The notes beneath the pieces were generated by a model, which was not told the DNA's origin, ran no database searches, and saw only the letters and a list, made by a program, of their open reading frames with translations. A stretch of 44,400 nt of DNA from an uncultured Christensenella sp. (lineage in GTDB: Bacteria; Bacillota; Clostridia; Christensenellales; DTU072). Below are positions 7,051 through 41,153 of this stretch, piece by piece. The DNA is taken from the NCBI GenBank assembly GCA_949285605.1, contig CASDZI010000008.1, forward strand, positions 1-44,400. Direction: 5' to 3'. A program made the position numbers and the translations under genes. Position 1 is the first letter of the stretch; each line of letters begins with the position of its first letter.

Positions 7051-7057
7051 GTATAAT
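7029..7057 (+). promoter_or_regulatory. Consensus sigma-A promoter of the giant lipoprotein gene
   Basis: TTGACA (7029-7034), exactly 17 nt, then TATAAT (7052-7057): a perfect match in both boxes and spacing. Transcription would start near 7064, giving a leader of about 60 nt that contains a hairpin and the GGAG ribosome binding site at 7115-7118. Confidence 0.88.
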
Positions 7058-7098: not shown

Positions 7099-7124
7099 GC
7101 AAGTCGAAACGATCGGAGTGTGTT

Positions 7125-7196
7125 ATGAAGACTAAAATCGCAAAACTATTTATTTTTCTGCTGTGCGTGGCGCTGATGTTCAGTATCGCCGCATGC
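7125..7196 (+). other. Lipoprotein signal peptide of the giant protein
   Basis: The N-terminus has lysines at 2, 4 and 7, then a hydrophobic core (LFIFLLCVALMF), and the lipobox IAAC with the lipidated cysteine at residue 24. Mature residues 25-45 are polar and acidic, including six aspartates in a row (38-43), a typical lipoprotein tether. Confidence 0.88.
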
Positions 7197-10100
7197 TCGG
7201 AGAGGGTAAGCAACGTTGACGAAGGGCCGTCCGGGGACGACGACGACGATGATGTTGTCGAAAAAATCGTCAACCTTACCAACAGCGAGGCCAGAAACCA
7301 CATAATCAAAGCGGTCAACAACATCGACACCACTCCTGTCGACGATCCCGAATGGTTCAATATAGATTTTGCGGTACGTTTCACATTCCATAACTACGAA
7401 AAATCGGGAGAGGTTTATACCGACGTTCCGGCGACGAGCATAGACTACAACATCGTCGTCAAAGGCGCTTTCAATCTGAAGGATAACTCTGCCAGCGCCG
7501 TTTTCATAGAGATCAAAGACGTCTATTCCAACCAGGTCAAGGTAGGCGTTTACTATTACGATTCCACGCTTTATCTCGACATAGGCGGGAAAAAATATTA
7601 TACCGAACAGCTCAATATGAGTCAGCTGGGAGGTTTGCTGTGGAAGTTGCTGGAGTCTACCGGAATAGACATAGTGCCTTTTATAGGTAACGCCCTCGGC
7701 GGACAGCTCGATATAGACAATACCGACATCACCGGTCTTATTTCCATTGCGTGGGGTATTCTTTTCAACAAAGAAGCCAACCTTACGTATACAGCCGACG
7801 AAAAGACGCAATATATCAATCAATATCTCAATATTGATATGATTATGGGAATGATTATGGAAGGGCGTATCAATATCGGCGGATTCATCGATATTGAAAT
7901 TTCCTGGGAGGCCTTCGGATTGCCTGATCTCGATCCGTTGCTCAGGCAGGTGCTCGGCTTCGGACTTCAGGACATCATCGACAAAGAATGGCCCTCGATG
8001 ACCTTCGAACTTTCTGCGATAACTCAGAAAGAGCCGGTAAAGCAGGCCGACGGAACCACTAAGGAAGATTACGTTTTCAACGGACTCGGCATAGACATCA
8101 CCTGCGAAACCGGCGAGTACGACGTCGATATAGACGTGACGCCTTTCAAAATGGGCGTCGGCAACACCAATACTGTACAAATGGACCTTGCCGGATACAA
8201 TTTCGGGTCGGCGGGGAAAGACAGCGTTTACGAAGAAGGCAGCCTGACCAATCTGGAACTCAATCTTCAGCTCGGAGTGGACAGCGAAGAAGACGAGGAA
8301 CTGACTATTTCCAGTATCCTCGGCAATATGCTCGGAGACCTCGGGGCGGTGGGGCAGATACCGCTGAAGATATCGGGCGGTTCCCATTACGTATTCGACG
8401 TTAAAGTGGCGGCAAGCATCGACTTGTTCGACAACGCCAACAACAAAGCTCAAGTCACGTTCAAATATAACGACGCCGACGTGTTTTCATTGTATCTTGC
8501 GCCCGATCTGCAGTTACAACAGGGCAGTTCCGTCCTTTACAGCACGCTTTACATAGACACCTCCAATCTGACCAGCGGAGGGACGCAGCTCATTCCGCAG
8601 CTGAAACTTCCCAATCTCAATCTTACGCAATTACTCGCCGGAACGCCGGAATTGCCGGGTCTTTTGGGCGATTACATGAAATATCTCGACCCGTATTACG
8701 CCAACACCACCACGGCAACCAGGCCGAGTAACGCCGACGGCGAAGAGGGAGGCGGGCTGGATATTATGGCTCTCCTCAACGTGCTTCTGACTTCGGACGG
8801 CGCGGGAGGATTCAAATATCTGACCTTCCCCACCGAAGAAAGTTCGATTTTCTCTTTGCATTTCGACAACGACGGTATCAATTCCCTTCTCGGTATGTTC
8901 ATGGAAGGGGTGAGCATAGGGGTGCACGGGATAGAGCTGAGCGTGGATTTCGACGATCCGTTCGATTCCGTCCGTCTTAACCTCAACGTCACCGAAGGAC
9001 TGACCGTCCACGCCGGCATAGGCAGGGACAACGCCGACGGAACGTACTCGACGGGTCTTTCCTATTTCGTGGAACCCGATTTCGAAATGGAGGCCATAGG
9101 TATCGATTCCGACGGAAACGTCACCGAAAACGCCGAGGCGTTGCGGGGCGAATACAAGTCTATGAGCGGTTCTCTCGATTACGGGGCGACCATTACGGGC
9201 AACTTTACCATAGGCTCTACCGGCGGATCGGAAATAGATCTGTCGGCGGTGGTGGGCGCTTTGGTGGAAAACGTCTTCCTGACCCTCGGAATAGAGACGA
9301 GCAGCGCTCTTTCGGTGGAATACGAATTGCAGGCGGGCGTCAACCTCCTCGATTTCTCGCAGGTAGGCGTTATACTCGATTTGTATCTTCTCGAGGACGG
9401 GACGCGTAAAGGATATCCTTTCCTTTCGATATATTATTCCGGCAACGAAGACACTCTGTTCATCAATCCCCAGGTAAACGAAGAAGAGGATATGGTGACT
9501 CAGCTTCACGGCAAATTGCCCATAACCAAAATCGTGGACGGAGCAATCCCGAAAATTTCCATACCTAACCTGGGGCTTAAGGACGTATTAAGCGGAATGG
9601 GGCTGGATCTTTCCGGGTTGGAAGGAATTCTGGGCGGAATGAACGCCGATTTCGCCTTCAACGTGGACGAAGAAACCGGCGAAGTGGACGCAGGGACCGA
9701 CGGAAATAATATCCTCGACATTGCCGCAGGAGCGCTCGACGGTATCGTGGTGAACGACGGAGTGCTGGAAGTTCTCATAAACGCCGAAGTTTTGGGCGTG
9801 CTGTTACAGCTTATGAATATGGACCTTACCGGGGATCTTCCCAAGGTCAACGGTAACCTCGCCATTCATCTCGGCACCGAGATACTGAGAGATCCCGAAG
9901 GCAGACCTCTTTACGAACAGACCGTAACGGATGAAGAAGGGAACAAGACGACCTATATATTCTCCATAAATTACGATGACGAAGGCGACCTCTTTTTACT
10001 TGACAAAGAAGGCAACGTCGTCAGCGACAATTGGCCCGTGGACGTTTCCAAAGCAATCCCCCATCTTAAAGACAGAGAACTTATAAAAGCGCATCTCGGC

Positions 10101-13100
10101 ATACTGGACAGCACCGGGAAAGAAATCGAAGCGTTTTATCTCGATCTCAAATTACTGGATACCGTTACGGTCAAGAAAGGTTCCGATCTTACCTTTGCCG
10201 GCGGCGGACACAGTTCGGCGTCGTACACTTCGCTCACCGACTGGGTGGCGTCGCTTGTCATATCCGTCAACGTGGAACTGGAACTTTCGGTGGACGCAAC
10301 CGACGCCGAAACCGTGCCCGATAAGCTCAATCAGGCCCTCGGCAAAATGCTGGAGGACCTCCTCGGCACCGACGCTGCCAGCGGAGCGTTTATCGATCAG
10401 CTTATCAGCAGTCTTGCCATTAAATTCAAAAACAATTATTTCTACGAAAACGGTTTGCACGTGGGTATAGCCGTGAAAGGCAACATCGACATCAACGATT
10501 TGTTCGCAAGCAATATAGCCGTGGTTATTTTCGACAAGACCATTCTCGACAGTAACGGTTATACCGCCGCAGACAACAGGACTTACGCCGTTATCGCAGG
10601 CGTTTACGTGGAAGACGGCAAAGGATACATCGACCTTTCCTATCTCGGCATCAATCCCCTTGCCATAACCGACCTCGAAGGTACTTACGTCGGCGCAATC
10701 GCTCTTTTGTGGAATAGTATGTATAACGATACGAGCGACCTCAACATCGACTTTTCCGACAATTATCAGTCCAAACGGGATCTGATGGATTTCGTTATGA
10801 AGGAGACCGTCTTTAATTACTTCTTCGAGAATTTCTATATTCAGAACGGTTACCGTAACTCTTATCCCGAAACGGCGTATAAATATCTCCTGCACGACGA
10901 CGGATATATTTATCTGTATTATCTGACGAGCTTCTCCAACTATTTCGACTACACGTCCCGTTCCAACGATATTTATCTGAAAACCGAAGGACGTTATTAT
11001 ACCGTTAAGGACGGGGTTATCAGCATATTTAATTCCAACGGAGATCTCTTTACCTCCATAGAACCCTTTATGCTTCCCGACGGGCCTTTGCGTATAAGCG
11101 TGGCTCAACTCGAAGAAGAGGCCAGAGAACAACGCAGGGAAGAAGCGGAAAGCACCGGTCAGGAACCGCCTAAGGAAATAGATTTTACCGACCTTCTGGA
11201 GAGCGAGGCGTACTCTTATTACGGCGATATTGTGACTAAATACGCCGGCATTTGGCAGGCGACCATAGCGCAGCCCAACCTCGACGGTTCGGTGAAAGCG
11301 CTTATGGATGCCGGACTTGCCGAAACGATAGCCGAAATTAAAAATTACGAAAGGGCGGTTATCGAATATTACGACAGGACCTCTCTTGAGTCTTCGGTGG
11401 CAGGCGAACTGATAAATTATATAAGAAAAGAATATTCTTCGAAATATGCCAACGCAACCAGCGTGGCGATAAGGAACTCCGAGGAATTCAAGACCCTTTT
11501 CCCGCAATGGGTGGAAGACAGAATTGTTTCCGAAGTCAATAAGGCTTATGAGTCGAGAGGCGTCAGCGTGGAAGAATTGCAGGCGGTCACTTATTTCCGC
11601 ATGAGAACGGTCAAGGTGTTCCGTGACAGTCTGGTCATTCCCGGCGAGACCGCAACCCAAGCCGTCAACGTGGCGAGCATGAGCGCTTTAAGGTATATTC
11701 TCACCCCCGCTCTGAACGCCGCTTACCGGCCGTATGAAATAAATCCCTCCAACGCCGCCATCGAAAATCCCAACCGCATAGCGTTGCAGGTCATCTACAA
11801 TTCCGGAAAAGTCTCCCTGGAACTCGGGAACACCGTTATTACGGGCGTTCTCAATATGCTCGGTTTCGGAATGGTGACGGAATTCATTACCATAGACATT
11901 ATAAAACTGGAAGTGGACACCAATAACGGGTTGGAACTCGAAGTAACGGTGGGACTGGACAGCGTTTATACGATAGGTCTCGGGCTCAATCAGCTCAGGG
12001 CGAGCGTCGATCCCGACAAGCGTGCCGATTACGCCGTGACCGTTAACAAAGACAACTTCGCTCCCGAAAGCACTACCGACGGAGTGCCCGATGCGGTACA
12101 CGTGGAAGTGGGCGGATCGCTGTTTATCAAGAACAAACTCGGAGAAAGCGGAATAAAACTCAGTAACGACTACAATTTTACCGAAACCGTAGCCGCTATC
12201 TTCAATAACTCTGTTTTCAATAAATCCGATCTCGACGCAATATATGCGCAGATAGAAGAAGAAAACAAAGACGTGACCATGGCCGAAAAAGCCAAAAAAG
12301 TCGCAGCCTGGAAACGTCTTGCTTCAATGGAACTTACCGAGGCGGAAAGGGAAGAACTCGATATACGTTACGGTTGGGCGGTTAAGGACATAGCCGCAAA
12401 CGTGGACGAGATAGAAGAGTGGTACGATGCGGTGCCCGGCGACGACACCCACTACGCTCTGGCGTGGGATTACCTGGTGGAAAATTCCATTATGGTGGAC
12501 CTCAACGGACTCGGAATGGATATTCTGGCTCAATTTTTGGGAGAAATGGACGACAGCCTCGATTTTAACATCGACGTATGGCTGGACTTCTCCAATATTT
12601 ACCGCAGCGTTCTCAAAGTGGAAATAGTCCGCAGTCTTATCGGAGAAGAGAAAGAAAGCGCTCTGACTTTCATTTACGACGGCAGCGACGTGGACGTCGG
12701 CGCTTCCAGTTTTGCCGGCGACGTTTACGTTTCCACCGACATATTCAGCATCGGCGACGTCGTTTTGCGTAACGTGACGGGCGTTATAAACGGTATTATG
12801 GAAGTTTTCGACTCCACCTTCATAACCGCTCTCGGCAACGCCATAGACAAATTCATAGGGATTGCGCCAAACACCGCTTCCAACGCTCCGGTATCCGGGA
12901 AAGGCTCCGACACCGTTTACAATGCGGCGGCTCTTGCGGATGCGGATTTAGCCACTTATCTCGATATTATGTTCAACGACGGCAGTCTCGGAATTGCCGT
13001 CACCAAAGCCACCCTCATCAGCGTAATTGCTCTTGCGGGAGTGGATCTGACCGAAGCGTTGCGGAATATCGATTTCGGAGCGGACATTTCGGTAGGATTC

Positions 13101-16100
13101 AAGGGCGACCTCAACCTTTCCGCCAGCGTATACCTCGATACCGAAGGCGAAGTGGTGGCAGAAGGCGGTCACGCTACCGAGATAGGCTTGACCATAGGGA
13201 ATATCAACGCAGACTTCGACGATTCTCAAATAATCACCGAAGAAGATAAGAACAAAGACTATGCCGAGGTGGAAGAATTCACCACCGTAGGATTGCATTG
13301 GGGAGGACTTGCTTCCTTCAAACTCAGCAATCTGACCAAGAACTTTAACTTCGACTATGCGGTTAAGATGTTCACCAACTACTGGTTGGACGGACGCGAT
13401 CCCGAAATAGGCTTGCAGCTCGACGTGGACGGAAAATTCGAACAGACCACCTATTTCTCCATCAACGCCAACGTCAACCTTACCACGCTTAAGGATCTTA
13501 AGAACATAGAACTTTACCTCAATCTGACTTCTCAGGGCAATCAGGATATTTACGACAGTCTTGCTCCGAGAAGGACTATGATGCAGTCCGTTCTCGCGGA
13601 AGCTGACGGGAACAAGGTACTCGCCTGGAACCTTCTCAAGGCCAGACTTGCTTCCGCCGTGCCCGGAACCGAAAGTTACAGCAAGGAACTGGAAATCCTT
13701 GACGACTATATCTGTTATATCAGAATGATAGAGATAGAAAACGAAATGCTCGGACGTTATCCCAACGAAACCGAGAGACTTACCGCCTCGTGGAACGAAT
13801 TATACGGACTTGCGGGAGATTATTATCTCGGTAATGCGGTTTCGTTGTATATCGTACTCGACGCAGAGGGCGTAGCGGACGTTTACCTCAATCTCGGGTT
13901 CCTCGGAGTGGAAAAAGTCAAGTTAAGTAACGTAAGTTCCATTTTGATAGCTTTAGGCGAAGCGTTCGGAATAGACTGGGGCGAACTCCTCGGCAGAGGA
14001 ACTTCCGACGCGTCCGGCGCAAGCAACGCCGACCTCGCCGCCGCATATGCCGACGTGGCGGACGTTATCGCAAGAGAAATTATTCTCAGCGTCACCACCA
14101 AAAAAGGCTCGGATATGTTGATGCTCAAAGTCACCGGCGGAGCGATCTACGCTCTGGCTGCCGCTCTCGGACTCGACATAGAAGAATATTTCAACGTTTA
14201 TACCCCCGAACTCCGTATTTCCGCCCTCGGAGAAGACTTGGTCAAGTTCAACCTCGGATTGGAAAATCTGTTCGATTTGTCCATAGAAGTGAACTATCCG
14301 CAGTTCAGTCTCACCGATAAACTCGACCTCGTCATCAACGAGGACGAATACACCGTTATCGACGAAGAATGGGCCACCGACATGAAACTCTTTATGGAAG
14401 GGGCTCTCGTGCTCGGAGCCGAGGGCGAAAACGACGCTACCTCTCCCGAAGATATCACTTCTCTCAATTTCGGCGATCTTTTGAGAGCTTTGCTCGGCGA
14501 CGAAAGTTTTGCCGTGGACGTTATCCTCAACACCTTGGAGAGCATAGGAGCGGACCTTACTTTCTATCTGGAGATAAAAGCCAACATAATGCAGATCTAT
14601 CAGACCGCTGCGGCTATAGACCCGAATGCGGAACTGGATATTTTGCAGCTTCTCAGCGCTTCCGGCGTGGAAATGTTCCTGGAAATAGTCAACCGCAGGG
14701 AAGGCAGCGACGGATTGATAATAGAAGACCTTATTCTCGGTATATATCTCGTCAAAGAAACCGCTCCCGACGGTATGAGCGAATATCTCTCGCTTTATCT
14801 CGACCTTTCGGCGTTCCATGTGGGAAGGATAAAGGTAGCCGACTTCGAATCCACCGCAAAAGACCTTATCGATAAGGTAGGAGATCTTTTCGGAAGCGAA
14901 GAAGAAACCGTTCCCGACGCATCCAATTCTTCCGTCGAGGAAGACGAGGACGATTCATTTGAGGAAGACGAGGGCGATAAGGAGATTATCGACGGCGTTT
15001 ACGCCGAAGACAAACCCGCTATGGATTTGTTCCGTTTCCTTATTTACCTTAGAACTGCGGCTTCCGAAACTTACGGGACCATAGATTATAACGATTACTT
15101 CGCCAAGTCCCCCGTTCGTCCCTCCAACGCTCCCGGCACGACGACGACCAAGAGTCTCGCCGACTTTATACATGCGACGATAGGAGACGGTTACGGCTTT
15201 ACCGTGACGGCGGCCTCCAACGTCCTTATCAAACTTCTCGAAGAAGCGTTCAACGACGAGAAGAGCCGTTTTGCAAGGAGTTTTGCCGACCTCGTGGAAA
15301 CCATGTACGTGGCGGAAAGGGAAAACGCCAAAGCGGTGGCGACGGCTATAAAGCTCCGTATGGAGCAGTTAATCGTGGAAACCGGCGGTGAAGATAACGT
15401 GTATTACGCCTGGGACAGCATGCTGGAAAGCCAGATGCTGGATACCGAGCATTACATTATTGCAGAAGATATCTATAATAAATTAGTTCAGAACAATATT
15501 TCCGGAGCGACTACCAACAAGCTCAAGGAGCTCGCCTGGGAGGAATTTTATGACGCCATAGAGGCGGAAATTGCCGCATTAAACGCCGAAATAGAAGACG
15601 AAAACGTCATCGAAGGGGAAATAAAAACCATTTCCGAAGAGTTTACGAGTTATTACGTCGAAGGGTTGTCTTTGGACAGCTATATCGAATCGATGCACGT
15701 CAAACTCGACGCACTGACCGCTTCCTACGAGCAAGCCGAGGAGACCGTCAACGGAATGAGCGGCGTTTCGTCGGATGACAAACCCATTTATATCAACCGT
15801 TACGCCTTCGAATATTTCACCAACCGCTTCAACTGGCCGACGGAAGAAATAGAGAAATACGAGGAAATTTACGATAAATATTATAAGGAAAACGCTTCCA
15901 GCGAACTGCTTGCGTCTTCCTACAGCTGGACGGAAATAAGAGCCTCCATACTCGCTTCCTACAATACTTTGCTGTCCGCACTTCGCTACGTCAACCTCGA
16001 CGTCGCTTATTCGCAATTCGATGTGGCGATAACCGATCGTCCCAACTACGAGGATTACGCCTCCGAAGAGGACTATATCCTCGACAACAACGTATTCATC

Positions 16101-37100: not shown

Positions 37101-40100
37101 CTGCCTGCGAAGGTGAACGCTCAAATCAATATCGGCGGAGGCCAGACGGTATTCCGTGAAGTTTATGTGGAATGGGACGGCTCCCTTGTCAGTGCGGATA
37201 TGACTCTCGCAGGCGGCGAGTATGAGAAAGGCGAGACCGCCACGCTGGCGTACGCTACCGTTTACGACCTCGACGAGAACGGAGAAAGGATAGGAGTTCA
37301 GACCATATCGTTAAGCGTATCCGTACCCGACAGAACGGTATTGAAGTATCAAGTAAGTTATAACGGGACCGATTATATCGACCTCAACGATTTACTTTAT
37401 AATTCCGAAGTAAATCCCGAAAACTTCACCAACGAACTGTTGCTCAACTCCTATACTATGCAGAACGCGTTGGTTGCCGATCCGAGGTTCAACACCGCCT
37501 ACAGAGAATACAGCGACGCCTTTACGGTAGTCAACGAGAAAGGCGAAACGATCGTCAACGATAAGTTCACGTTCTTCAGAAATGTGAAAGTCGTAGCCAG
37601 AGGCGAATTCGAGATCGACTACGAACTCACCGCAGCCAACTATGCGGCTATAAGCAAAGTCAGCGGTGACCTCTACGGCGGACACAGCGTAGAAATACTC
37701 CTTAACGTAGGACAGGCAGTCAACGGCGAAACCGGTCTTACCTGCGCTTCCGACGCTTATTCGATGAGAGTAACGCCGAACGTGACGGCAGACAGAGAAG
37801 GCAGTTTCGACGAAAGTCTGAAAGTAAGGATACTCGATATGACTTACGACGGCGGGTTGGATAAGGATATTTACTATATCGACCTGTACGGCGTGATCCG
37901 CAACACGGCTTTCGACGGAATAACCTTCGAAGAGAGCGTAATTTATCCCGAAGACACGTTAAGAGACGTAGTCATCTACGGCCGCGATCGCGAAAACTAC
38001 TACCGTCTCGACGGAAACGGGAACAGAGAAGAAATCGTGACCTACACCTTCGAGGAAGTAAATTACGACGGCAGCAACGTAAATTACAACTGGTTCGACA
38101 TAGTCGGTATCGATACGACCACCGGAGAATTTACGCTCAAAGAACTCAAACGCAGAGGTTCTGCGATAAATTACGGCGCAGGCGTAGGTAAACTTACCGT
38201 AACTTTCGGAAACGACTCGGAAAACCTCTATGCAGGTACGCAGACTTTCTCCATACCGATTATTTACGTTGACAGAACGGTGGAGGAAATAGTATTCAAC
38301 AGCGCAAACGCTCCTTACTACAAATATATCGACTGGAATACCGGCGTCACCGAGCAGGGCTTCGAATTCGATCCGTTCGTGAAATACAACAATTCCGAGA
38401 ACGGATTCGGGGACAACGAGCAGGGCTTCCTGAAGAACGGTAAATACGGAGCCACGTTGGTATTCGGGACCACCGACATAGACCGTATATTCAACAATAA
38501 GGTCAACGACACCTTCGAATACAACCTTACCACCGATCAGCAAGACGTAAGGATAGGAGTGGTATTCGAGGATAAGGACCTTATCTGGAGATACACCGGA
38601 GGAGAATTCGAAGTAGACGCCACCATCGGCAGCGGCAGAGGATTGCAGAAGATAGCCTACAGAGTGAAACTTCTTTCCAGAAGGGTGGACGCAGACAGGG
38701 AAGGCACCGTATTCGGATTCAGTTCCAATATCCTCAAAGACGGTTATACTCAGGAAATCATCAAGGTTTACGATTATATCGGACAAGTTAACGTGGAGAA
38801 GAAGCTCATAGAAATGATCTTCAATACCTCTGTAGACAATAATTTCCAGGTTTACTTCGAAGGGTTCGAAGATCCGATAACCTACACGATGGGCTCCCTT
38901 GCCACCGACGTGGACGGGAAGTATTTCCTCGACGAAAGCGAACTGTCCTACACCGACTTGCAAGGTAACGTATTCAATAACGGAGTTCAGATGAGCTTTA
39001 CTATGGATACCGCAAATTCCATCAGTTACAAGGGCGGTAAACTCAAGTTCACGATGACGATCCCCGGTTACGGAATGGGTTCCGACGGTCAGCAGAAAGC
39101 CTCCGTTACCTTCGAAATGGCGGAACAGTATATTATCTATACTACTCCCGCCGACGATAACGGAGACGAGTTGACTTACGACGAGTTCTTCGCCGACGCC
39201 ATAGCCGCCGACGCGATAGAATACGACACGACATCTCACCGTTGGTTCATCACCAATCCGTACTACTTCATTATGCAGGGCGGCGTCAAGATGCCCGATG
39301 CGATTTACGCTTACGTCACCAACAAAGCCAACTACGAGCGTTATAACGAATTACTGACGACGGCGACGGAAGACGAACTGAACGATTACCTTGAAAGTAT
39401 AGCCGGAGAGATCGACAAGTATAAAGCCAACGTCATCTGGACGGGCGGCAGTCTCGGCAGAGTTACCGTTTACTATAACGATACCGAGAGAGCGACTTCC
39501 ATGACCATGCCGATAGACGACCAGACCTACAGGTTCCGCTTCAACGTGCAGCCGTGGTTGTTCAACGGTATCGAAGGAGCGATAGACGGCTTCGAAGACA
39601 CTACGCCTTACGGTCCGGACGACATCATTCTGTTGCCGACTTCCAGCGGACTTACCAAGGAGCTCAACAGTAAGTTCTATATCCAAGTCGTCTACAACAC
39701 CGACGACAACGGACAGCCGATGTACGACGCTATGTACGGATACGAAATGCATTACACCATCAACGGGGAAGAGAAAGTAGTGACCGTGTATGACGTAAAC
39801 GGCGGAGGAAGCTACAGAGACAATTACAATAAGTGGTACTTCGGAGCGGTCAAGTTCGGATATTCCAACCAATACGCCACCATAACCTTAGGCGGCAAGG
39901 GCGGCCAGACCTTCCGTTGGAAGTTCCTCAAAACCTCCACCAGACAGTGGATCAACAGTAACGTACCGAGCCTGATGGCGTTGTCGGCCGGGAACGAGGT
40001 CGAGTTGCCGAGCAACCTCATTCAGTACTTCGGACAGAGCAATTCCTACGTTATCGAATCCACTCCGGCGGAATACTACATTCCGATAGAGTATCTGAGC

Positions 40101-41099
40101 CTGGAGAAACCGCTCAACGACAGCCGTTACGACATTATCGCAAGCCCAGACTTCACGCAGAACAAACTTACGGTTCATCGCTCCAGTCCCGCTACCATTC
40201 AGAGTCTCGACTTCGGTCGCGAGAAAGACAAAGACGGTAACGAAGGAGCTCAAATCGTCAACCCGTACCAGATAGCGTTGCTGAAATGGCAGGCGGCGGG
40301 ACGCAGAGCTTATCCCAGTCCTTCCCAGACCGTAGGCGGCACCATAGTAGTCAGCGGATACGGTTCGGTAATGCCGTGGTACGTTTACGAAACCGACAAG
40401 AGCCTTATAGCAAGTATCTTCAAGAGCGACGACAACGTAGGTTTCAACAGGATTTACGTTTCCGATGCCCTGAACGACAAACACTATCTCCTGCCTCCGA
40501 ACACCGAGGAAGAAATAGAAGGAGCGAGTGCGGCTTACACCAATGCAAACGTCTCTTTGGACAGCGGATACCGTTATTCCGACGATATGTATAACTCTAT
40601 GGCACTGGATCTGTACTATGTGGATAATAACGGACAGGCAGCCAACCGAGTTCCGACGTTGTATGTGAAGAGAGGCACGCCGTTTGCCGTTCACAACCTG
40701 CCGTTATTCCAGTTGAACCTTACTTTCTCGGTCAAGACGGATACTACTATTCCCGGAATTGACTGGACGATAGGTTCGGATTACTCCGCATTCAGCGCCA
40801 AGACGAGTATTTATATCCCGTGGCAGGATGCTAAGGTTTACAGCTTCAGCGGTTCTCTCAGTATATCCGGCGGAAAACCGAATGCAACGCCCCTTACCGG
40901 AGGACTGAGCGCCATCAACACCAATGCAAGCGTAGGTACGAAGTATCTGCTGGCAGTCGACTTCAGCATCAATATGTCCACCATAACCGACGCCGAAGAG
41001 ATGTATAACACCAGACCTACCAACGATACTGCGGCTCCGAGCAAGAGCGAGGCGAAATCCTTTACCGTTTACACCATCTTACAGGTATCCAACAGGTAA
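7125..41099 (+). CDS. Giant (11,324-residue) modular surface lipoprotein, unrecognised family
   Basis: This is a single open frame of 33,975 nt with GGAG 6 nt before the ATG. The protein starts with a lipoprotein signal peptide and an acidic linker. About fourteen divergent copies of a beta-rich module of some 300 residues follow, broken by alpha-helical insertions of about 80 to 1,860 residues. After these come a carboxypeptidase-regulatory-like domain near residue 7613, a hydrophobic helical stretch near 8200-8290, and Ig-like repeats to the end (...TILQVSNR). I see no LPXTG sortase signal, C-terminal membrane helix, S-layer homology domains, protease or glycosidase signature, or NRPS/PKS motifs. 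I count only about ten cysteines beyond the signal peptide, as expected for an exported protein. The modules recall mycobacterial LppX-type lipid-binding lipoproteins in strand pattern, but this is by eye only. It would be exported by Sec, lipidated and held on the outer face of the membrane, reaching outward. Adhesion, lipid binding or shielding are all possible; I do not assign a function. It has its own promoter and terminator. Confidence 0.93.
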   Translation: MKTKIAKLFIFLLCVALMFSIAACSERVSNVDEGPSGDDDDDDVVEKIVNLTNSEARNHIIKAVNNIDTTPVDDPEWFNIDFAVRFTFHNYEKSGEVYTDVPATSIDYNIVVKGAFNLKDNSASAVFIEIKDVYSNQVKVGVYYYDSTLYLDIGGKKYYTEQLNMSQLGGLLWKLLESTGIDIVPFIGNALGGQLDIDNTDITGLISIAWGILFNKEANLTYTADEKTQYINQYLNIDMIMGMIMEGRINIGGFIDIEISWEAFGLPDLDPLLRQVLGFGLQDIIDKEWPSMTFELSAITQKEPVKQADGTTKEDYVFNGLGIDITCETGEYDVDIDVTPFKMGVGNTNTVQMDLAGYNFGSAGKDSVYEEGSLTNLELNLQLGVDSEEDEELTISSILGNMLGDLGAVGQIPLKISGGSHYVFDVKVAASIDLFDNANNKAQVTFKYNDADVFSLYLAPDLQLQQGSSVLYSTLYIDTSNLTSGGTQLIPQLKLPNLNLTQLLAGTPELPGLLGDYMKYLDPYYANTTTATRPSNADGEEGGGLDIMALLNVLLTSDGAGGFKYLTFPTEESSIFSLHFDNDGINSLLGMFMEGVSIGVHGIELSVDFDDPFDSVRLNLNVTEGLTVHAGIGRDNADGTYSTGLSYFVEPDFEMEAIGIDSDGNVTENAEALRGEYKSMSGSLDYGATITGNFTIGSTGGSEIDLSAVVGALVENVFLTLGIETSSALSVEYELQAGVNLLDFSQVGVILDLYLLEDGTRKGYPFLSIYYSGNEDTLFINPQVNEEEDMVTQLHGKLPITKIVDGAIPKISIPNLGLKDVLSGMGLDLSGLEGILGGMNADFAFNVDEETGEVDAGTDGNNILDIAAGALDGIVVNDGVLEVLINAEVLGVLLQLMNMDLTGDLPKVNGNLAIHLGTEILRDPEGRPLYEQTVTDEEGNKTTYIFSINYDDEGDLFLLDKEGNVVSDNWPVDVSKAIPHLKDRELIKAHLGILDSTGKEIEAFYLDLKLLDTVTVKKGSDLTFAGGGHSSASYTSLTDWVASLVISVNVELELSVDATDAETVPDKLNQALGKMLEDLLGTDAASGAFIDQLISSLAIKFKNNYFYENGLHVGIAVKGNIDINDLFASNIAVVIFDKTILDSNGYTAADNRTYAVIAGVYVEDGKGYIDLSYLGINPLAITDLEGTYVGAIALLWNSMYNDTSDLNIDFSDNYQSKRDLMDFVMKETVFNYFFENFYIQNGYRNSYPETAYKYLLHDDGYIYLYYLTSFSNYFDYTSRSNDIYLKTEGRYYTVKDGVISIFNSNGDLFTSIEPFMLPDGPLRISVAQLEEEAREQRREEAESTGQEPPKEIDFTDLLESEAYSYYGDIVTKYAGIWQATIAQPNLDGSVKALMDAGLAETIAEIKNYERAVIEYYDRTSLESSVAGELINYIRKEYSSKYANATSVAIRNSEEFKTLFPQWVEDRIVSEVNKAYESRGVSVEELQAVTYFRMRTVKVFRDSLVIPGETATQAVNVASMSALRYILTPALNAAYRPYEINPSNAAIENPNRIALQVIYNSGKVSLELGNTVITGVLNMLGFGMVTEFITIDIIKLEVDTNNGLELEVTVGLDSVYTIGLGLNQLRASVDPDKRADYAVTVNKDNFAPESTTDGVPDAVHVEVGGSLFIKNKLGESGIKLSNDYNFTETVAAIFNNSVFNKSDLDAIYAQIEEENKDVTMAEKAKKVAAWKRLASMELTEAEREELDIRYGWAVKDIAANVDEIEEWYDAVPGDDTHYALAWDYLVENSIMVDLNGLGMDILAQFLGEMDDSLDFNIDVWLDFSNIYRSVLKVEIVRSLIGEEKESALTFIYDGSDVDVGASSFAGDVYVSTDIFSIGDVVLRNVTGVINGIMEVFDSTFITALGNAIDKFIGIAPNTASNAPVSGKGSDTVYNAAALADADLATYLDIMFNDGSLGIAVTKATLISVIALAGVDLTEALRNIDFGADISVGFKGDLNLSASVYLDTEGEVVAEGGHATEIGLTIGNINADFDDSQIITEEDKNKDYAEVEEFTTVGLHWGGLASFKLSNLTKNFNFDYAVKMFTNYWLDGRDPEIGLQLDVDGKFEQTTYFSINANVNLTTLKDLKNIELYLNLTSQGNQDIYDSLAPRRTMMQSVLAEADGNKVLAWNLLKARLASAVPGTESYSKELEILDDYICYIRMIEIENEMLGRYPNETERLTASWNELYGLAGDYYLGNAVSLYIVLDAEGVADVYLNLGFLGVEKVKLSNVSSILIALGEAFGIDWGELLGRGTSDASGASNADLAAAYADVADVIAREIILSVTTKKGSDMLMLKVTGGAIYALAAALGLDIEEYFNVYTPELRISALGEDLVKFNLGLENLFDLSIEVNYPQFSLTDKLDLVINEDEYTVIDEEWATDMKLFMEGALVLGAEGENDATSPEDITSLNFGDLLRALLGDESFAVDVILNTLESIGADLTFYLEIKANIMQIYQTAAAIDPNAELDILQLLSASGVEMFLEIVNRREGSDGLIIEDLILGIYLVKETAPDGMSEYLSLYLDLSAFHVGRIKVADFESTAKDLIDKVGDLFGSEEETVPDASNSSVEEDEDDSFEEDEGDKEIIDGVYAEDKPAMDLFRFLIYLRTAASETYGTIDYNDYFAKSPVRPSNAPGTTTTKSLADFIHATIGDGYGFTVTAASNVLIKLLEEAFNDEKSRFARSFADLVETMYVAERENAKAVATAIKLRMEQLIVETGGEDNVYYAWDSMLESQMLDTEHYIIAEDIYNKLVQNNISGATTNKLKELAWEEFYDAIEAEIAALNAEIEDENVIEGEIKTISEEFTSYYVEGLSLDSYIESMHVKLDALTASYEQAEETVNGMSGVSSDDKPIYINRYAFEYFTNRFNWPTEEIEKYEEIYDKYYKENASSELLASSYSWTEIRASILASYNTLLSALRYVNLDVAYSQFDVAITDRPNYEDYASEEDYILDNNVFIISEGRYSGYATDLTYNWKAVAWEYLVETGGIDKTLAEQYISAIKTEYVANAQGLLGENEYRYAAWKYLNEDAKRIFEGTRSYYYLLRKRAELNDEGATVYVWYKMDKEKDYSATLDEIYENSYSMMPQLIVDAVNEDGSLTLGLLYDSSIINVDADVANLYFKVLFKGAGIKIADSDLSHTVLVTETDENGKPVQVEKEEAVNAEYLNAKDFDVIDENFGFVYAKMEIDFGISMDENSVYDFSDLVNTILSGAGLDLVFNGQKLDIAPVLSILSQVGENFRLSLEARVNLFSLFDRDLSNTDISLTLFSLDDNGVYDPVKDMVLQLVFGTMLDEEGTEVNFVYVDASRFNIQRLYVKNALDYIKQLIGQNAYPVGYDVANGGSVSKTIIAAAMADVLSAEEGEKTIFDFYAENAPAGTVNPSVDINLAQSGMAIQIASNAIYTLLGFLGMGDIKSMISQVGDPSVKLDIFSVATYGDDDSVPTVYDDGDRDVMRFQLNFDSINENGVSTQRGISLKLALHNVELSLAQDKYIDFDGSVLERDENGDPIDFAEVDGILPSVNLSTTLYLEVDAGVTTGTNLYQDPVASIMEKYLGGLIIDLALYIANKQKITFALDIEANLDFGNGEDTNYLEHLISGSTLRIALRIYRTGDNISTDPTKEWAVIYYYNGNLYIDLRNLNSDRVYVADAGNMLFGSADDATNRALFAAVDELRNATLTGATLGVDAQINGEGLFLIVKKTAIAALLRILGFGGFDIFPDAAIQVYAKGVTVSEGVSSLELGLGLAMGENIATGTTDINPILGLGIRISGLYVGFTKSDINLTNTEDYKRIDRVDTLYFNTQIVLNITDDKGVYGLGGLLQLMKDKGYLDLNASLGIAATIDPVIEFLESIDSTLYVNIALTVNIKSILEDLQGQIEFLTDDGQGGKRLLLSLSYIRGDAYIDAEGISSSNFYLGKVKIGGLLDLLGLFTGEDASESAQNTYAKIKEYQDEFSDHTISSFADVNNKVNGTINIIGDIIEGISVELVNGAIFGLLKQFLGADMKELIDNVETMVNTAINPSLVVNVDPSITVLITMKLPSTDYNTQPEVTETLEALQDALEYWYPDAGEQWMVYPDEIWRQLAEGSKLYEYYDIPSVEKINKVNEWINTSKPKAAETFQAMRNRFPKVSESQIYVLTYEYLMIEIYGDISMRTSYGYGEAFNDDDKVSGVYDHSEKLETFLNELMKAYVWDEFYASVTDVEMRSELDKNLALADGDKAKAFGTTVGGDFKELAEALQNLYKGNEYVVYVNNLRNNNPGTTDVTIYRNLVQGLMRVMFATEDAYLSYLSEQITSTADGTTVYLARYEELYIYQRARAWEAYYEIADVYEKAVMDSAFAYAEGKYPGASLTELQAYAFDKYKSDLQDDATIFEQALTADDVNVLKFVVWNEMNRYYYYEESPVEGLDIDDVLDMVAIADAVLEAVKAYSLTNSVILDEYRETAFAYDILFDEKSAFEAADEYFEGTASEILRAIRAKAAEILAGCDRPNISQSVTVGDNATEYEKSSKFVSLLSQYEAKLALLRGNGNEVIQIDAYSDGFSIKSDAWDNLIALEMQSIVPEVTISSETGATNSGYAQSNKDNGYEANPAVYFAELGITLENDLLKLYLIYNQLRTDSADKSLFDAADEYASDTANIGNATSICANNGYGADGYLVEYYRGARAFARYLYLRTEAFTEEELAVVADIAEGNYGAVSYVTYFDKFASYVGIGKDHANNITKAVGIVNDIYETLREAYEEENEAIRKQINEIIGEIMADTAVNIPSLSTAVTAGDVENVNGLKLYPVYLAFATVIEKYGETDAYVSDALTFAANYTSVTDFERLAIAYGRYLRRCELASLNDRVSEAEGYANDYTNGRYDSVNAAVWNGYMTSYVGDNTRPEEIKTESARISKLFTQLNNEYYVKRYAWDDWYRLSSTIDRINEMNDMLYAKVFEFMYDDIGSIVSDVIIAAADDDIFSGMNVVSSLAKSYTSANILTYMEFFAEFRSEAADLYNRITAFYEENSAMVDQADIDWTQTLEGRATDVQKADIMNIVYDTVVLDPDGYPALSNWTSIYDRSVQKIIDFDIPLYSELIFANIEGVSSVETYRSEITSLFNDVTAYSVDKYYDGLLNAKMASMKSTLISNLIYLFDPIIETLNSEEREYYIQKLNINEQDPNDMERLVYDKYIDQLVEEYGNYPSESDVNAQNTLAGLKEVFDKAVFFSKAIQLKTAEYTYLRGNSTLEEYNAKVAEIENYDYDAGQPTLLAFVDYDEILSGSDVYAYYLARLNALNAIREGLTYEEEELLAATSTVYVSILDNWIGILEAGVTFEALSAAVYALMESSNLTETTIKAQVDALKGTYATAAAATFRTLFSAGVITANYGTDNIYSTYINNYDMLKTATGAELTLVGLAQAEVLLTYTDRDCALLMELISQAYENIVSEPISDFDSIVSAYRTEYEKAYVDNITEVIEYLHAQLGTTWYNGFLGTDAGYLNYADETVAAVTARLGELYKEWAGVDVVPETDLNGLITAIGGIEDFTVPGSSEKFYAFANALNDIIVSNYDNMGVLTDEGRVAAMNYAVKTTYNNSSAVTAAIYEIIVDARNYYLEAATSEYSEVYAPDQIIAIGKKYYDSYMKSTSDLEAVVTYTENAGVTEDYLKMSTLLEYLFNGSYSVSGINTSFRAIFDKYAVGGPTYFILVSEAYRNALADDFDALAASIRTNDSANADLIAYLNGLDASSPQAKALSLLALAEYLDGVSVSADTGVLLKAVNDVFASLTDPKGILTKEIWTKYYADYISSNPAVLEGLELKEILGNGSDDAEEVLSKLDFREMSIIFKQYLSILENDATEELTNVMISGEVLNKAFDVIYTDALDKSDDLASLAVSVGIAGSNTGLLLDIKSIVTGSDGSVSTNIEDVLSDTEKAEYTDYSELTLRLNVNASLTISLDEGLIDISEIIGLMNLPIDLDLDIQFLAAHTLYAEVSGQLGVNFAALLSGDKAQIDDSIVGDLTITYYLIDHDTTGENVRFQQVILHIWIYGPSIYAQVELFDSHLNVEIPLSIGETIMNLVYPDGESDPATEQLNAAIMQAYHGVSEEEAANMLNPFEEFCSVVNNADSDLFDIVRVLLRIGTKETALILTADILSELLKAVFDDDATNYDDLVNLIFTEGKLGVEYGDDFSVNIGVSKDGDDEGTVGYDIKFSLLNDTLLSLDRGTFDELYGSVDKLDEQGYFNNFFEVGTDLATDASLTETLMSIIGERTTISFSMYLESDMLKHILDWSKLFSVQEIDTYFQLRILQNAHGRLRIDIGLDIDLNQEAFDFRISGYNIDEKNIFNIYFFGGLLNHDGSGQEGVLNPKIYVDSGDFTDNDRLLLTPEVGFDFLGINFADLFFKLIGSDTRYEIVGSNASVAEYADESTGGSVFDNIDWGKIAESITFGKGTIGIKLSSGIVEALLQALFGFEFDELGNITLELDNVNNTLQLTIPVDAPIRDENGNVVNDSKMNFIFGLSDIDISLGQRENFFGTEDLNTKFAYYQDISQYVWVAELNSSLHVNDDFNTVLDLTGISSSLIKGLGFNLVSGDDLDIELCFALRVYIDFADIRRMRFELEIGHGDGNGNQTKRILSIKYVGEADNGDVYVDLSGLGFPKVSINDVNLGGLVKNLLGMINDIGEEETVTAPSFASARASYASGTAGNHTSAAEDQADRYPDISSMEFGQNMLLFIFSEEEVSLAITGSLLLTLLGNLDDVLGGGVLPDLILDLPTFSYLKVGRDDADNVTGIQLVLDENKQFSIRFNFNESFSHLKKRTDLSSVTDMTIVNDDDRDDYVSIDQIKNLHIGLEMSLTLQTINPGTNEKSEIISGFEDMLEALLGLQDGTVLFDMQDTQMTFNVVLDVGVDLVNFENSIIKLEIYYNDDVMIGVYYINGVVYVDLGTLGLFQASINGIDLASVLSGLLTGDLIGENGIDVAGLLAGLLDADKITEGATGTITKSSSFVKEDTKQSLIDEAKAGMAVMSGMINGGYSADQLSVIADVLERTELKDLTDLSTADINNIVAALKAQTDYLSVVAPKFLGITESLAVDLIKQLFTTAAGVVAGMTPDAIREAAAEAGSGLYSGFTASQLTLIANYMDVNRVTALEKASNTLLTKLATDLYNGESAWLYFLYPTDELLEEAIITKLKAYSDVFGATTRGFMSAWASAMTDLKVTTMSKLEESTVKDIVTAAVNYLAAEIDERFGYADSEKKLLLNESLALFGIYETGGGITVSGGTSGSAGSALINLILENDTIKINPNAQVLTLLFNMIMPGSNINVPAFNRLELSLNTYAGLNNFTFNLKLDEQGNRLGINVPEGGLSVKINEGVGEAPNGSDLPLSEYILLPDTDVFGGLTGVSLNANGFNIATAALVNSLIDSIFIDNLNIYLEHRADYWTRKDLFTKYPKVDATGPYTYADNDAGYLGNDGSAFSTIIKILRIANTIYGMVTGSGWLDIITGGFNVITDLFGDDVNEPVFMRNQYARAKVAVNKSVTNVINADISTPSFKQGAIGAHIENHQIFLSVGISLTVKVYITIDLKSFLNGDNEGFESKGLNISDLAGFVLFPDNMFASDDASESSGRFYGRVVDENGDPVAQATVAVYNSRGDRQTTTTDKDGYYYFLDLPLTEHITGDLNLSNLEKWLANNLTIDPEAEAGFTYNGKVYRKIGTKYYLLSDRSGFSVSKEGYSSYFEQNLYILPKETMTANNINVTLVNAATETPKHVTVTGKTYYLNTPDGSYTDPSNLTLFGGMSIIYNGGALRTVSSMATATKGEFSLTLPLYQKLIDHYENNGIYNNFDGTMAGYRLVGYVYQNQSVTAESIDSTINGTSDGGTVNVDLIFSRTDVTGTTFVGKILAYNKYTREMEVPEAGTYQFWISVQGKTVGVTDYYDLEPEDFSINVDEAGEFSFTSDALPLEATGSSTYIFKFRSEVYKNFNLVVGADGTATETGASHGASTITTAEVYGTYASVFNVELNVAPREAHWSDAEVDEEGNEAGMIGSLISRIRIRLGADVLDGEAHGDGDNGIQEYDYSYKDDVSNLEYEGSNVTEKYNTYTYIEAWLDSSAFNDILMMVENFVLGMIGVTGVATDQTISAQDIALGDYTEEGDFNLSFYTDEDIERKGEGELKDAFVGRYKGRYNENDIKIFDKVYVDKGAYYQASHSALAKMSPGLVHYIIAMVLDGFVGTLHFNLLGEEIGVMDLIAFLVLSPGSFTIIPYLGSLFNTAGLAVGNLLNDLAILISHLLPLQLSYSMFDTMDLKGSPLYGMQEYFREGQLSGQTVQVTGADGKTYTRDLYRKAQTYDMSVYAKITLNASAPGGYLESILLFVNGASYSQSSEISGNLADGNRMESYTALQQGDWNYNYWENNGRVGNYFTLKTVYATEKEYMQLEPKEEASEGMQVFFKDNGSETYVPYDANWEEVYADRELEMETVTETVDGEEVTKQVPVRYAMTETQTETVISSEVTYNVDNSATHSIKSVDIKTLDIIVKGVVQEENLAFMEDWIKRTNINSYAISDVYYIHPDTEEEVIYNRVFIYDDEQNPKEDVYQELEIKNNGIDLRKVDDDLNGDFYTITYDPYDKLWTKALTVPPTRIIFHDPFDMTDFTVIGGTWASSGGHGGNRRNTDPDITADMILPNRYYATFADGNSNGTQGMNVYWDVSALNFNANGTPEGTVEYLKGYIGNAVYAAIEVVVEPFSIDLVSAKAQIIQQIGNLVIDPYDFDAEEFIAGLPDFFYYNYDSTSGGEQRQKTYLFNELVWSLDYQVIDGVRRYTSLVYNDPDTQPYVNLKFRAYGEDADGNEYSSNTAWTSVQIPFSMLNYEIKSVTSAVDNSIGGIVPSEENGYHGTITFNPLNNRDPYATLQALGSFDVVNIKNELKLNNIVKTVVNDWTIIPGSFTSLTVNGKNLANYDRNDTSEQLYAVSYKVTDGTGYVQTVMIQVKILASGIAAGESYYLDKNGNKVFFEDNRELYPYGADSEGNIEIEELYSNGSLIDRLYLTDELYVMYESGYDEKVSLGKDYTTERIVYATYDPVTGTLGAEGATVITGEGFSYKIPYMSYSEGKQIVINAIIGQHGYAQWQLDAMVTEIMLSNTPLLYTLNAAKQEAYDKLYETLDAYGKLQWTKTLTENGNNKASAWDAWYAIYSEPGNAATYSVNDTLKLDILLTSVRLAHSTLTYEAAQAQAYQRLINENSNPDADLNLISVTELRNLYAEITDANPLLTVRQLQAKTFETWRNERTRSEIDIVRTVIARNARAAGSAVIIPDKNFTIDSLPSAITISYAEVTDVYGKYSPVSTKVTWIVDEDQLLDVIGLNGAVVYAEVVIKDELFGNQTLRGVAIVINQMKVTDVLFGNSDNFAVNAYHESDIDNILKDYYYEDITNSSDSFISIKVDDRTISIPSGGWDNAFWELATDPTEKYEETDFNKVIWRYVDDTNGNGDYTDDGLSYHNDGSRGSHKIQIYVRSKNYDTSSASGRWSYPVTLDLTALNKYDYNASGYVVTNVQVDATVSAVESVEIDGVKDAADIAYNDLEDKYVISIDPEKIKLGDEQTILFDVVYAGGQEDTIKGRFELDENSGFYSKESIESRIIFGDKTNNIQYLDVIIKNKAIWTFTEVSSVSYYRLNEAEEKVFVDMNGWIGSAMEDLDELLPTHAEVRGINASGIVSTANLAVTWSNITPYGLNGRTTSGSVPTADVSIGDETFGYLRYYGIKLNIGAERVVSVVSADLPESVKIDPYGEQDLEWLANAYSSVKVNTVYVAANGTERQAVRTVDAIVEISDIDLLAYRQSGFAETAFPVRFYLGNTVEEGIYGAFDVRHEEVREIVLWDRSLQALYIKDETGASLSYISGDIYNVIDFEDYRYFILYGSGSEAVEVKDVVWSGLDNIVYNANGGQYTVTATIGEGELRQSVEVTVIIDRALLTGIQVIGGEDGTDPDAYLPAVNGSDGLVEKLVIEPFYGFVNLPAKVNAQINIGGGQTVFREVYVEWDGSLVSADMTLAGGEYEKGETATLAYATVYDLDENGERIGVQTISLSVSVPDRTVLKYQVSYNGTDYIDLNDLLYNSEVNPENFTNELLLNSYTMQNALVADPRFNTAYREYSDAFTVVNEKGETIVNDKFTFFRNVKVVARGEFEIDYELTAANYAAISKVSGDLYGGHSVEILLNVGQAVNGETGLTCASDAYSMRVTPNVTADREGSFDESLKVRILDMTYDGGLDKDIYYIDLYGVIRNTAFDGITFEESVIYPEDTLRDVVIYGRDRENYYRLDGNGNREEIVTYTFEEVNYDGSNVNYNWFDIVGIDTTTGEFTLKELKRRGSAINYGAGVGKLTVTFGNDSENLYAGTQTFSIPIIYVDRTVEEIVFNSANAPYYKYIDWNTGVTEQGFEFDPFVKYNNSENGFGDNEQGFLKNGKYGATLVFGTTDIDRIFNNKVNDTFEYNLTTDQQDVRIGVVFEDKDLIWRYTGGEFEVDATIGSGRGLQKIAYRVKLLSRRVDADREGTVFGFSSNILKDGYTQEIIKVYDYIGQVNVEKKLIEMIFNTSVDNNFQVYFEGFEDPITYTMGSLATDVDGKYFLDESELSYTDLQGNVFNNGVQMSFTMDTANSISYKGGKLKFTMTIPGYGMGSDGQQKASVTFEMAEQYIIYTTPADDNGDELTYDEFFADAIAADAIEYDTTSHRWFITNPYYFIMQGGVKMPDAIYAYVTNKANYERYNELLTTATEDELNDYLESIAGEIDKYKANVIWTGGSLGRVTVYYNDTERATSMTMPIDDQTYRFRFNVQPWLFNGIEGAIDGFEDTTPYGPDDIILLPTSSGLTKELNSKFYIQVVYNTDDNGQPMYDAMYGYEMHYTINGEEKVVTVYDVNGGGSYRDNYNKWYFGAVKFGYSNQYATITLGGKGGQTFRWKFLKTSTRQWINSNVPSLMALSAGNEVELPSNLIQYFGQSNSYVIESTPAEYYIPIEYLSLEKPLNDSRYDIIASPDFTQNKLTVHRSSPATIQSLDFGREKDKDGNEGAQIVNPYQIALLKWQAAGRRAYPSPSQTVGGTIVVSGYGSVMPWYVYETDKSLIASIFKSDDNVGFNRIYVSDALNDKHYLLPPNTEEEIEGASAAYTNANVSLDSGYRYSDDMYNSMALDLYYVDNNGQAANRVPTLYVKRGTPFAVHNLPLFQLNLTFSVKTDTTIPGIDWTIGSDYSAFSAKTSIYIPWQDAKVYSFSGSLSISGGKPNATPLTGGLSAINTNASVGTKYLLAVDFSINMSTITDAEEMYNTRPTNDTAAPSKSEAKSFTVYTILQVSNR
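7245..19350 (+). repeat. First array of beta-rich modules in the giant protein (nine motif copies)
   Basis: The protein-level repeat is divergent. Each module has a strand-helix motif of the form hydrophobic strand, then LLxxLhG. Examples are GLFLIVKKTAIAALLRILGF (about 18288) and MAIQIASNAIYTLLGFLGM (about 17392). Copies begin near 8866, 9752, 11799, 12975, 14102, 15186, 17386, 18285 and 19147. Between them lies a second motif, a strand ending YhDL-like, as in NGNLYIDLRNL (about 18100) and ADVYLNLGFLGVEKVKL (about 13876). Uninterrupted copies are 862-899 nt apart. Larger gaps hold helical insertions at about 10735-11770, 12190-12480, 13555-13810 and 15250-16485. An acidic Ser/Glu/Asp linker lies at about 14911-14990. 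Confidence 0.7.
19350..24925 (+). other. Central alpha-helical block of the giant protein
   Basis: About 1,860 residues (roughly 4076-5934) are predicted by eye to be almost wholly alpha-helical and are rich in Tyr, Ala, Glu and Asp. Short degenerate motifs recur: a helix start of the form P-x-h-S/T-x-x-x-L/I-Q-x-x-A/T-F/Y, for example YPGASLTELQAYAFDKY near 20240, and an A/V-W-D/E/N-x-F/Y/W motif, for example RARAWEAYYEIADVY near 20148. It sits between the ninth and tenth beta-module motifs, so it behaves as one huge insertion in the module array. Confidence 0.65.
24925..29940 (+). repeat. Second array of beta-rich modules in the giant protein (five motif copies)
   Basis: The strand-helix motif returns near 25530, 26451, 27315, 28978 and 29308, for example TIGIKLSSGIVEALLQALFG. 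The paired YhDL-type strand appears as GDVYVDLSGLGFPKVSINDV (about 27037) and NGVVYVDLGTLGLFQASING (about 27904). Uninterrupted copies are about 921 and 864 nt apart. A helical insertion of some 260 residues at about 28120-28905 separates the twelfth and thirteenth copies. The last two copies are only about 330 nt apart, so one is a partial module. Confidence 0.68.
29961..30090 (+). other. Carboxypeptidase-regulatory-like (Cna-B-like) domain in the giant protein
   Basis: Residues about 7613-7656 read GRFYGRVVDENGDPVAQATV, then AVYNSRGDRQTTTTDKDGYY and FLDLP. This is the familiar beta-sandwich pattern of carboxypeptidase-regulatory-like domains (G-x-V-x-D-x-x-G-x-P-V-x-x-A-x-V ... T-D-x-x-G-x-Y-x-F). 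Two weaker strand-rich segments follow to about 31130 and may be diverged relatives. The domain usually acts as a structural spacer in secreted proteins. Confidence 0.72.
31705..32010 (+). other. Hydrophobic helical stretch inside the giant protein
   Basis: Residues about 8195-8295 hold several strongly hydrophobic segments in close succession: LVHYIIAMVLDGFVGTLHF, VMDLIAFLVLSPG, SFTIIPYLGSLFNTAGLAVG and DLAILISHLLPLQLSY. Nothing else in the mature protein is this hydrophobic. It could be a buried helical bundle, a lipid-binding or membrane-contacting element, or a true membrane insertion. Confidence 0.6.
33650..41096 (+). repeat. C-terminal Ig-like repeat region of the giant protein
   Basis: About 2,480 residues are dominated by short beta-strands. 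A tryptophan-centred strand recurs: KVTWIVDED (about 35110), KVIWRYVDD (35495), AVTWSNITP (36227), DVVWSGLDN (36845), YVEWDGSL (37163), DLIWRYTGG (38578) and NVIWTGGSL (39430). Each is followed by hydrophobic-alternating strands, resembling bacterial Ig-like domains. A helical insertion at about 34430-34985 carries the same Q-x-x-A helix motif as the central block. The region ends without any cell-wall anchor signal. Confidence 0.6.
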
Positions 41100-41121
41100 A
41101 AGGAGATTGACCGAAAAAGGA

Positions 41122-41153
41122 CCGGTTCCCTTCGAAAGGGAGCCGGTTTTTTT
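41122..41153 (+). terminator. Intrinsic terminator of the giant gene
   Basis: CCGGTTCCCTT pairs with AAGGGAGCCGG (41122-41132 with 41136-41146), an 11-bp stem with one G-T pair and a 3-nt loop, followed by seven T (41147-41153). It begins 23 nt after the giant gene's stop. It is the strongest terminator in the window and separates the giant gene from the NlpC/P60 gene. Confidence 0.92.

Follow-up and report, generated by a model that had tools for sequence, protein, structure and literature searches.

Locus and Gene Signals

The window, that is the whole 44,400-nt stretch of DNA analyzed here, derives from an uncultured rumen bacterium and carries a giant gene between a gene for a PP-loop ATPase (TtcA-like) and one for an SH3/NlpC-P60 lipoprotein. 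The gene and its signals are as follows:

7029–7057, plus strand: promoter TTGACA-17-TATAAT (12/12 match to the consensus; kept upstream of the orthologues in the genus)
7115–7118, plus strand: ribosome binding site GGAG (sequence; 6 nt upstream of the ATG)
7125–7196, plus strand: lipoprotein signal peptide with lipobox IAAC and Cys24 (sequence; conserved in homologues)
7125–41099, plus strand: giant lipoprotein gene, 11,324 aa (intact frame and conservation)
41115–41153, plus strand: intrinsic terminator hairpin (18 bp, -26 kcal/mol, z -5.5; U-run at its end)

Adjoining the PP-loop gene (4461–5906, minus strand), a TIR-like N-terminal domain putatively fused to a SAM methyltransferase was recognized by eye.

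The giant frame runs from ATG to TAA over 11,324 codons with no internal stop, there is no N in the window, and the encoded protein has a mass of about 1.25 MDa. Given the base composition, the chance expectation for an open frame of such length is about 10^-236. Purifying selection acts over the entire frame: the orthologue in the nearest relative, a sister species (G006), is colinear, 11,335 aa long and 89.6% identical, with dN 0.064, dS 0.570 and dN/dS 0.11, and every 500-aa bin has a dN/dS of 0.03–0.20 (all <0.21). Independent metagenome-assembled genomes (MAGs) of other studies also encode colinear, uninterrupted homologues. The gene and its conservation are shown by these data. Two long antisense frames, at 17991–20681 and 28365–30860 (both minus strand; 896 and 831 aa), lie within the gene; these are a codon-bias shadow rather than genes, the in-register antisense frame having just 52 stops.

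The promoter matches the consensus at 12/12 positions in four of seven relatives, at 11/12 in two and at 10/12 in one. Several relatives have an inverted repeat within the 17-bp spacer (ATACGC-N9-GCGTAT in G008 and G009, ACAC...GTGT in the window and G006), which may possibly serve as a repressor operator. The signal peptide is the most hydrophobic segment of the protein (2.54 vs. at most 1.99 elsewhere), and a hydropathy scan found no clear transmembrane segment besides it. The lipobox cysteine was detected automatically in nearly all homologues with an N-terminus and spotted by eye in the remainder; the protein meets the criterion for a bacterial lipoprotein, a signal peptide with a lipobox cysteine.

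An earlier sequence-only reading had claimed a single intact 33,975-nt gene for an 11,324-residue lipoprotein, organized and not a chance frame, with a perfect promoter, a good ribosome site, a lipoprotein signal and a strong terminator. The intact gene held (frame, signal peptide, conserved orthologues), as did its organized nature (chance expectation, purifying selection, colinear orthologues), and the signals held in every detail. The check which that reading had proposed, a search for giant genes in related genomes, was run and returned homologues in most sampled genomes of the host's taxonomic family.

Distribution and Architecture of the Family

Homologues were found in 32 of the 34 sampled genomes of this taxonomic family (hereafter f1). 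The complete ones span 8,200–13,600 aa and have common ends and a common architecture: members of the window's genus that are complete at both ends measure 11,674, 12,524, 13,588 and 12,483 aa, and complete copies from the other genera 8.2–9.7 kaa. The block order N - D - E - F - CarboxypepD_reg - G - C-terminus is nearly invariant in f1, with exceptions in G010, G011 and G019, where block F is displaced; a match to the C-terminal block was not found in G008. The main difference of the window's genus is the D–E interval, which covers 2,014–3,030 aa versus 237–686 aa in other genera. Trees of the N- and C-terminal parts have 8 of 11 splits in common, the genus among them. In one genome (G015, locus L072) the giant frame is broken into frames of 1,855 and 6,742 aa, by a frameshift either in the gene or in the assembly.

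The homologue records belong to uncultured Clostridia MAGs, several of them labeled as rumen, and to Christensenella sp. UBA1782 (NCBI order Christensenellales). With a profile built from the first 830 aa, distant members of 600–10,500 aa were recovered in five further families of the same order, apparently Christensenellales: 7–10.5 kaa in f3 and f17, 2.6–2.7 kaa in f6 and f14, and 760 aa in f8. Among 291 genomes of the class and 249 of the phylum, the N-domain profile (22 rows) matched only the window genome, and no relatives of the giant protein were found in the viral contigs and phages searched; the family is likely clade-specific. The window genome also encodes two more relatives of the N-terminal domain, lipoprotein-like open frames of 3,778 aa (G000:C4) and 560 aa (G000:C48).

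A Divergent Repeated Module

Profile iteration revealed a repeated module with a core of about 65 profile positions, of which the window protein has 11 significant copies besides one interrupted and one weak copy:

7446–7631, plus strand: repeat copy 1 core, aa 108–169 (module profile, E 4e-12)
8394–8636, plus strand: repeat copy 2 core, aa 424–504 (module profile)
9315–9590, plus strand: repeat copy 3 core, aa 731–822 (module profile)
10461–10691, plus strand: repeat copy 4 core, aa 1113–1189 (module profile)
12558–12788, plus strand: repeat copy 5 core, aa 1812–1888 (module profile)
13452–13946, plus strand: repeat copy 6, split by an insertion, aa 2110–2274 (two half matches, E 0.002 and 0.0009)
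14562–14855, plus strand: repeat copy 7 core, aa 2480–2577 (module profile)
16938–17180, plus strand: repeat copy 8 core, aa 3272–3352 (module profile)
17934–18176, plus strand: repeat copy 9 core, aa 3604–3684 (module profile)
18777–18986, plus strand: repeat copy 10 core, aa 3885–3954 (module profile)
26049–26273, plus strand: repeat copy 11, weak, aa 6309–6383 (module profile, E 0.1)
26898–27116, plus strand: repeat copy 12 core, aa 6592–6664 (module profile, E 2e-15)
27798–27986, plus strand: repeat copy 13 core, aa 6892–6954 (module profile, E 3e-15)

In total, 398 copies were found in 37 homologous proteins and none in reversed decoys. Proteins of 600–770 aa have a single copy and those of 2.6–2.7 kaa have 4–6, the complete f1 and f3 giants have 10–13, and the f17 proteins of 10.3–10.5 kaa have 18–19. 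Sequence identity between modules is low; the repeats emerge only with profiles, a DNA repeat search returning nearly nothing and a single-sequence self-BLAST the self match alone. By sequence profile, the repeats are shown and the copies are clearly homologous to one another.

Predicted Fold of the Modules

An AlphaFold2 model was calculated for aa 28–1180 from an alignment of nine sequences, with a mean pLDDT of 63 and about 80 for the first domain:

7272–8165, plus strand: N-terminal LolA/LppX-like domain, predicted, aa 50–347 (AF2 model; VIA-align)

The modelled first domain consists of a helix, six strands, three (lid) helices and further strands, an order consistent with the LolA fold as described in PMC6363788. 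In a VIA-align comparison of model residues 18–347, the first nine rows were LprF, LppX, LprG (three rows), RseB, LprG, LolA and RseB, with Z from 8.1 to 6.9 (LprF 8.1, LppX 7.9, LprG 7.8); the LprF alignment covers 177 residues at an rmsd of 6.3 Å. It should be borne in mind that a Z of 8.1 is borderline, VIA-align itself warning that such values may be coincidental; nearly all top rows are nonetheless of the LolA/LppX superfamily. As a prediction, and a borderline one, the domain meets the criterion for the LolA/LppX (beta-clam) fold, a half-barrel of about 11 strands with an N-terminal helix and a helical lid. Model regions 347–631 and 657–1015 independently match LolA3, LolA and LolB, and also DUF1329 and ApoB, the LolA/LolB rows standing for copies 2–4; the whole model gives weak matches to MTP, ApoB and LptD. 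The predicted strands are strongly amphipathic (z 6.9); ordinary beta sandwiches also have amphipathic strands. A second model, of aa 3201–4020, was poor (pLDDT 49) and had no clear fold match. The model predictions, coherent if borderline, give the N-terminal module the lipid-carrier fold of LppX, LprF, LprG and LolA, and the predicted composition of the giant protein as an array of LolA-like modules is fairly well supported.

Other Regions and Searches for Known Families

Three further regions stand out in the protein:

19332–24764, plus strand: fast-evolving insertion, approximately aa 4070–5880 (gap between conserved blocks; lowest identity to G006)
29970–30101, plus strand: CarboxypepD_reg-like domain, aa 7616–7659 (PF13620, E 1.8e-9, above the cut-off)
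38925–41096, plus strand: conserved C-terminal block, aa 10601–11324 (most complete family members match at E about 1e-200)

The insertion, which falls in the D–E interval that is so much longer in the window's genus, is likely to be largely helical, judging from a weak helix periodicity and by eye. The C-terminal block is 26–93% identical among homologues and matched no known family; the C-terminal part contains weak internal repeats.

Sequence searches of Pfam, NCBIfam, PHROGs, PADLOC and the PDB returned nothing except the one small CarboxypepD_reg domain. Matches of the N-terminal profile to antibody chains (E 0.015 and worse) were judged to be chance. The LolA/LppX Pfam models had no sequence-level match to the protein: PF07161 (LppX_LprAFG) matched neither the 1000-aa slices nor 19 N-terminal homologues at E up to 1, and its genome-wide search matched nowhere and is hence uninformative. 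No slice contained the Pfam domains AsmA, TamB, Chorein or VPS13. Adenylation and ketosynthase domains, RTX nonapeptides and LPXTG motifs are all absent, so the earlier claim that the NRPS/PKS, RTX and LPXTG classes do not fit held. Its statement that the family is not recognizable held for sequence families, and a full-length match to a characterized family, which it had named as grounds for refutation, was found in none of Pfam, NCBIfam or PHROG; the repeats and the fold comparison now suggest tandem LolA/LppX-type modules.

Gene Neighborhood in Relatives

In other f1 genera (G010, G017, G020, G022 and G026) a PIG-L deacetylase is encoded directly upstream of the giant gene, joined in several of these genomes by a ROK protein and an uncharacterized protein that looks epimerase-like by eye; M6 peptidase/RCC1/Big_2 proteins are encoded downstream. 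PIG-L also occurs near the giant gene in f3 (G035), there with GH20. In the window's genus the gene lacks this neighborhood; the window genome has one PIG-L, located away from the gene. The association could possibly hint at a glycolipid cargo, with the reservation that it is not conserved in the window's genus.

Envelope and Lipid Synthesis of the Hosts

Omp85 was not found in the host genome by a search that was positive in seven diderm controls, and because of this the host is probably monoderm; the most likely place of the lipidated N-terminus is therefore the outer surface of the cytoplasmic membrane, with the remainder of the protein outside. Using profiles that were all positive in controls, FabH and PlsY were absent from 34/34 f1 genomes and the FabF/ketoacyl synthase (KAS) C-terminal domain from 33/34, the single positive genome having one 894-aa frame with two matches that is PKS-like in appearance. 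This loss of FabF, FabH and PlsY is shown. A DegV/FakB-type fatty-acid binder was present in 31/34 (profile likewise positive in controls).

Across 25 families of the order, the protein family of the giant occurs in 4/5 of those lacking PlsY versus 2/20 of those bearing it (p = 0.005), and in 0/7 of the sampled KAS-positive families (p 0.10). These tests are uncorrected for phylogeny, and each family other than f1 is represented in them by a single genome; in f6, the genome lacking PlsY is not the one bearing the protein. PlsY is present in two protein-bearing families, f3 and f8, and many families lacking FASII are without the giant's protein family. Lipid auxotrophy of the whole f1 rumen/gut lineage is possible and remains unestablished, PlsB, PlsC and the CDP-DAG enzymes having been outside the searches.

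Discussion

We propose that the protein acquires lipids by means of a giant array of LolA-like modules anchored to the membrane, a working hypothesis that may as readily fail as stand: lipid binding is inferred and there are no ligand data. Cys24 would tether the protein to the outer side of the cytoplasmic membrane of a monoderm cell; much of the first 7,000 residues would consist of the approximately 12–13 half-barrel modules of LolA/LppX type that can be detected, along with insertions inside modules and between neighbors, and would be followed by mostly beta-rich domains and then the conserved C-terminal block. Each module would hold a hydrophobic ligand beneath its helical lid, the chain would draw on membranes, vesicles or micelles in the rumen or gut for fatty acids or (phospho)lipids, and this cargo would pass between modules, or by flexing of the chain, into the cell membrane of an organism without FASII condensing enzymes and PlsY. 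The direction of transfer, the hand-over mechanism and the outward-facing tip with the C-terminal block are likewise inferred. Acquisition is favored over export because of the absence of Omp85, the missing FabF, FabH and PlsY, and the association with PlsY loss.

A bolder reading, in which the whole lineage has lost the ability to make fatty acids and phosphatidic acid and is fed via the chain of LolA-type cups, is one we lean against; if true, this would be the first case of a free-living monoderm with a cell wall that acquires lipids by a giant apparatus. If lipid-carrier modules do feed bacteria seemingly unable to make lipids, this would be a new way to supply membrane and would make the lifestyle of lipid-dependent gut and rumen bacteria testable; lipid supply may possibly be part of why these bacteria resist cultivation.

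The alternative that survives best, and remains possible, is a giant surface fiber or adhesin, with the beta modules as mere spacers and the C-terminal block and Ig-like part binding cells, plant fiber or mucus. In its favor, the giant proteins that other Bacillota place outside the cell are adhesin-like (Giant1-5 of Apilactobacillus, PMC12863079), the whole family conserves the C-terminal block, the C-terminal part contains weak internal repeats, and M6/RCC1/Big_2 and Ig/transglutaminase surface proteins adjoin the gene in other genera. However, LolA-type modules are not known to act as spacers; here they are the conserved N-terminal part and also stand alone in lipoproteins of 600–770 aa. 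Furthermore, no wall-sorting motif was found, leaving the lipid as sole anchor, and the link with PlsY loss would be left unexplained.

Export or positioning of a self-made lipid or glycolipid, as by LppX/LprG in mycobacteria, is an unlikely alternative to import. The closest folds, LprF, LprG and LppX, help to export lipids of the envelope; several genera have PIG-L and ROK kinase genes immediately upstream, with PIG-L in another family too, and GlcNAc glycolipids are frequent substrates of PIG-L enzymes. An ABC/FtsX permease is also encoded near the gene in one f17 genome. Against this, an outer membrane is probably lacking, a cell without FabF, FabH and PlsY gives scant sign of lipid synthesis to export, and the window's genus lacks the PIG-L neighborhood at the gene.

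Very unlikely is a single continuous hydrophobic groove (VPS13/AsmA/TamB- or apoB/MTP-like) instead of separate LolA beads: the weak whole-model matches to MTP, ApoB and LptD and the low inter-module identity, as in bridge proteins, speak for it, whereas lid helices between strand sets and the single-module members suit discrete half-barrels, and Pfam matches to AsmA, Chorein and VPS13 are lacking. An assembly or annotation artefact is all but excluded: although the gene lies on a single MAG contig, which the window spans completely, and long reads are still absent, independent assemblies hold complete colinear orthologues of 8–13.6 kaa and the whole frame is under purifying selection.

Comparison with Known Systems

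The gene ranks among the longest in bacteria; bacterial proteins of more than 10,000 residues are rare, and most are enzymatic assembly lines or adhesins. LolA-type modules are already known; their scale and arrangement here are without precedent in the literature searched, where nothing was found on giant proteins or lipid auxotrophy in this lineage. LppX, LprF and LprG of mycobacteria (CATH 2.50.20) share with the giant a lipoprotein signal, the predicted fold of the N-domain (Z 7.1–8.1) and long amphipathic strands with lid helices. They are, however, single domains of about 200 aa, whereas the window protein, 11,324 aa long, is a tandem array that also carries inserted and C-terminal domains, comes from a Clostridia lineage and has no detectable sequence similarity to them. 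Bridge-like transfer proteins (VPS13/ATG2; AsmA/TamB) are likewise very long, beta-rich, built of repeats and membrane-anchored at one end; unlike them, the giant lipoprotein has discrete-looking, lidded LolA cups and no Pfam match, and its host probably has no second membrane. The Apilactobacillus Giant1-5 proteins (PMC12863079) are also giant and secreted and account for a sizeable part of a small Bacillota genome, but consist of a beta-solenoid and a helical rod, and the text of that paper mentions neither lipoprotein nor LolA. P116 of Mycoplasma pneumoniae (PMC10023570), a large protein of the cell surface, has hydrophobic cavities and provides lipids to a bacterium whose own lipid synthesis is reduced. 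Its fold is different, without a match in the PDB according to its authors (PMC10023570), and it is not repeated; the job proposed for the giant lipoprotein is alike, by purpose and not by homology.
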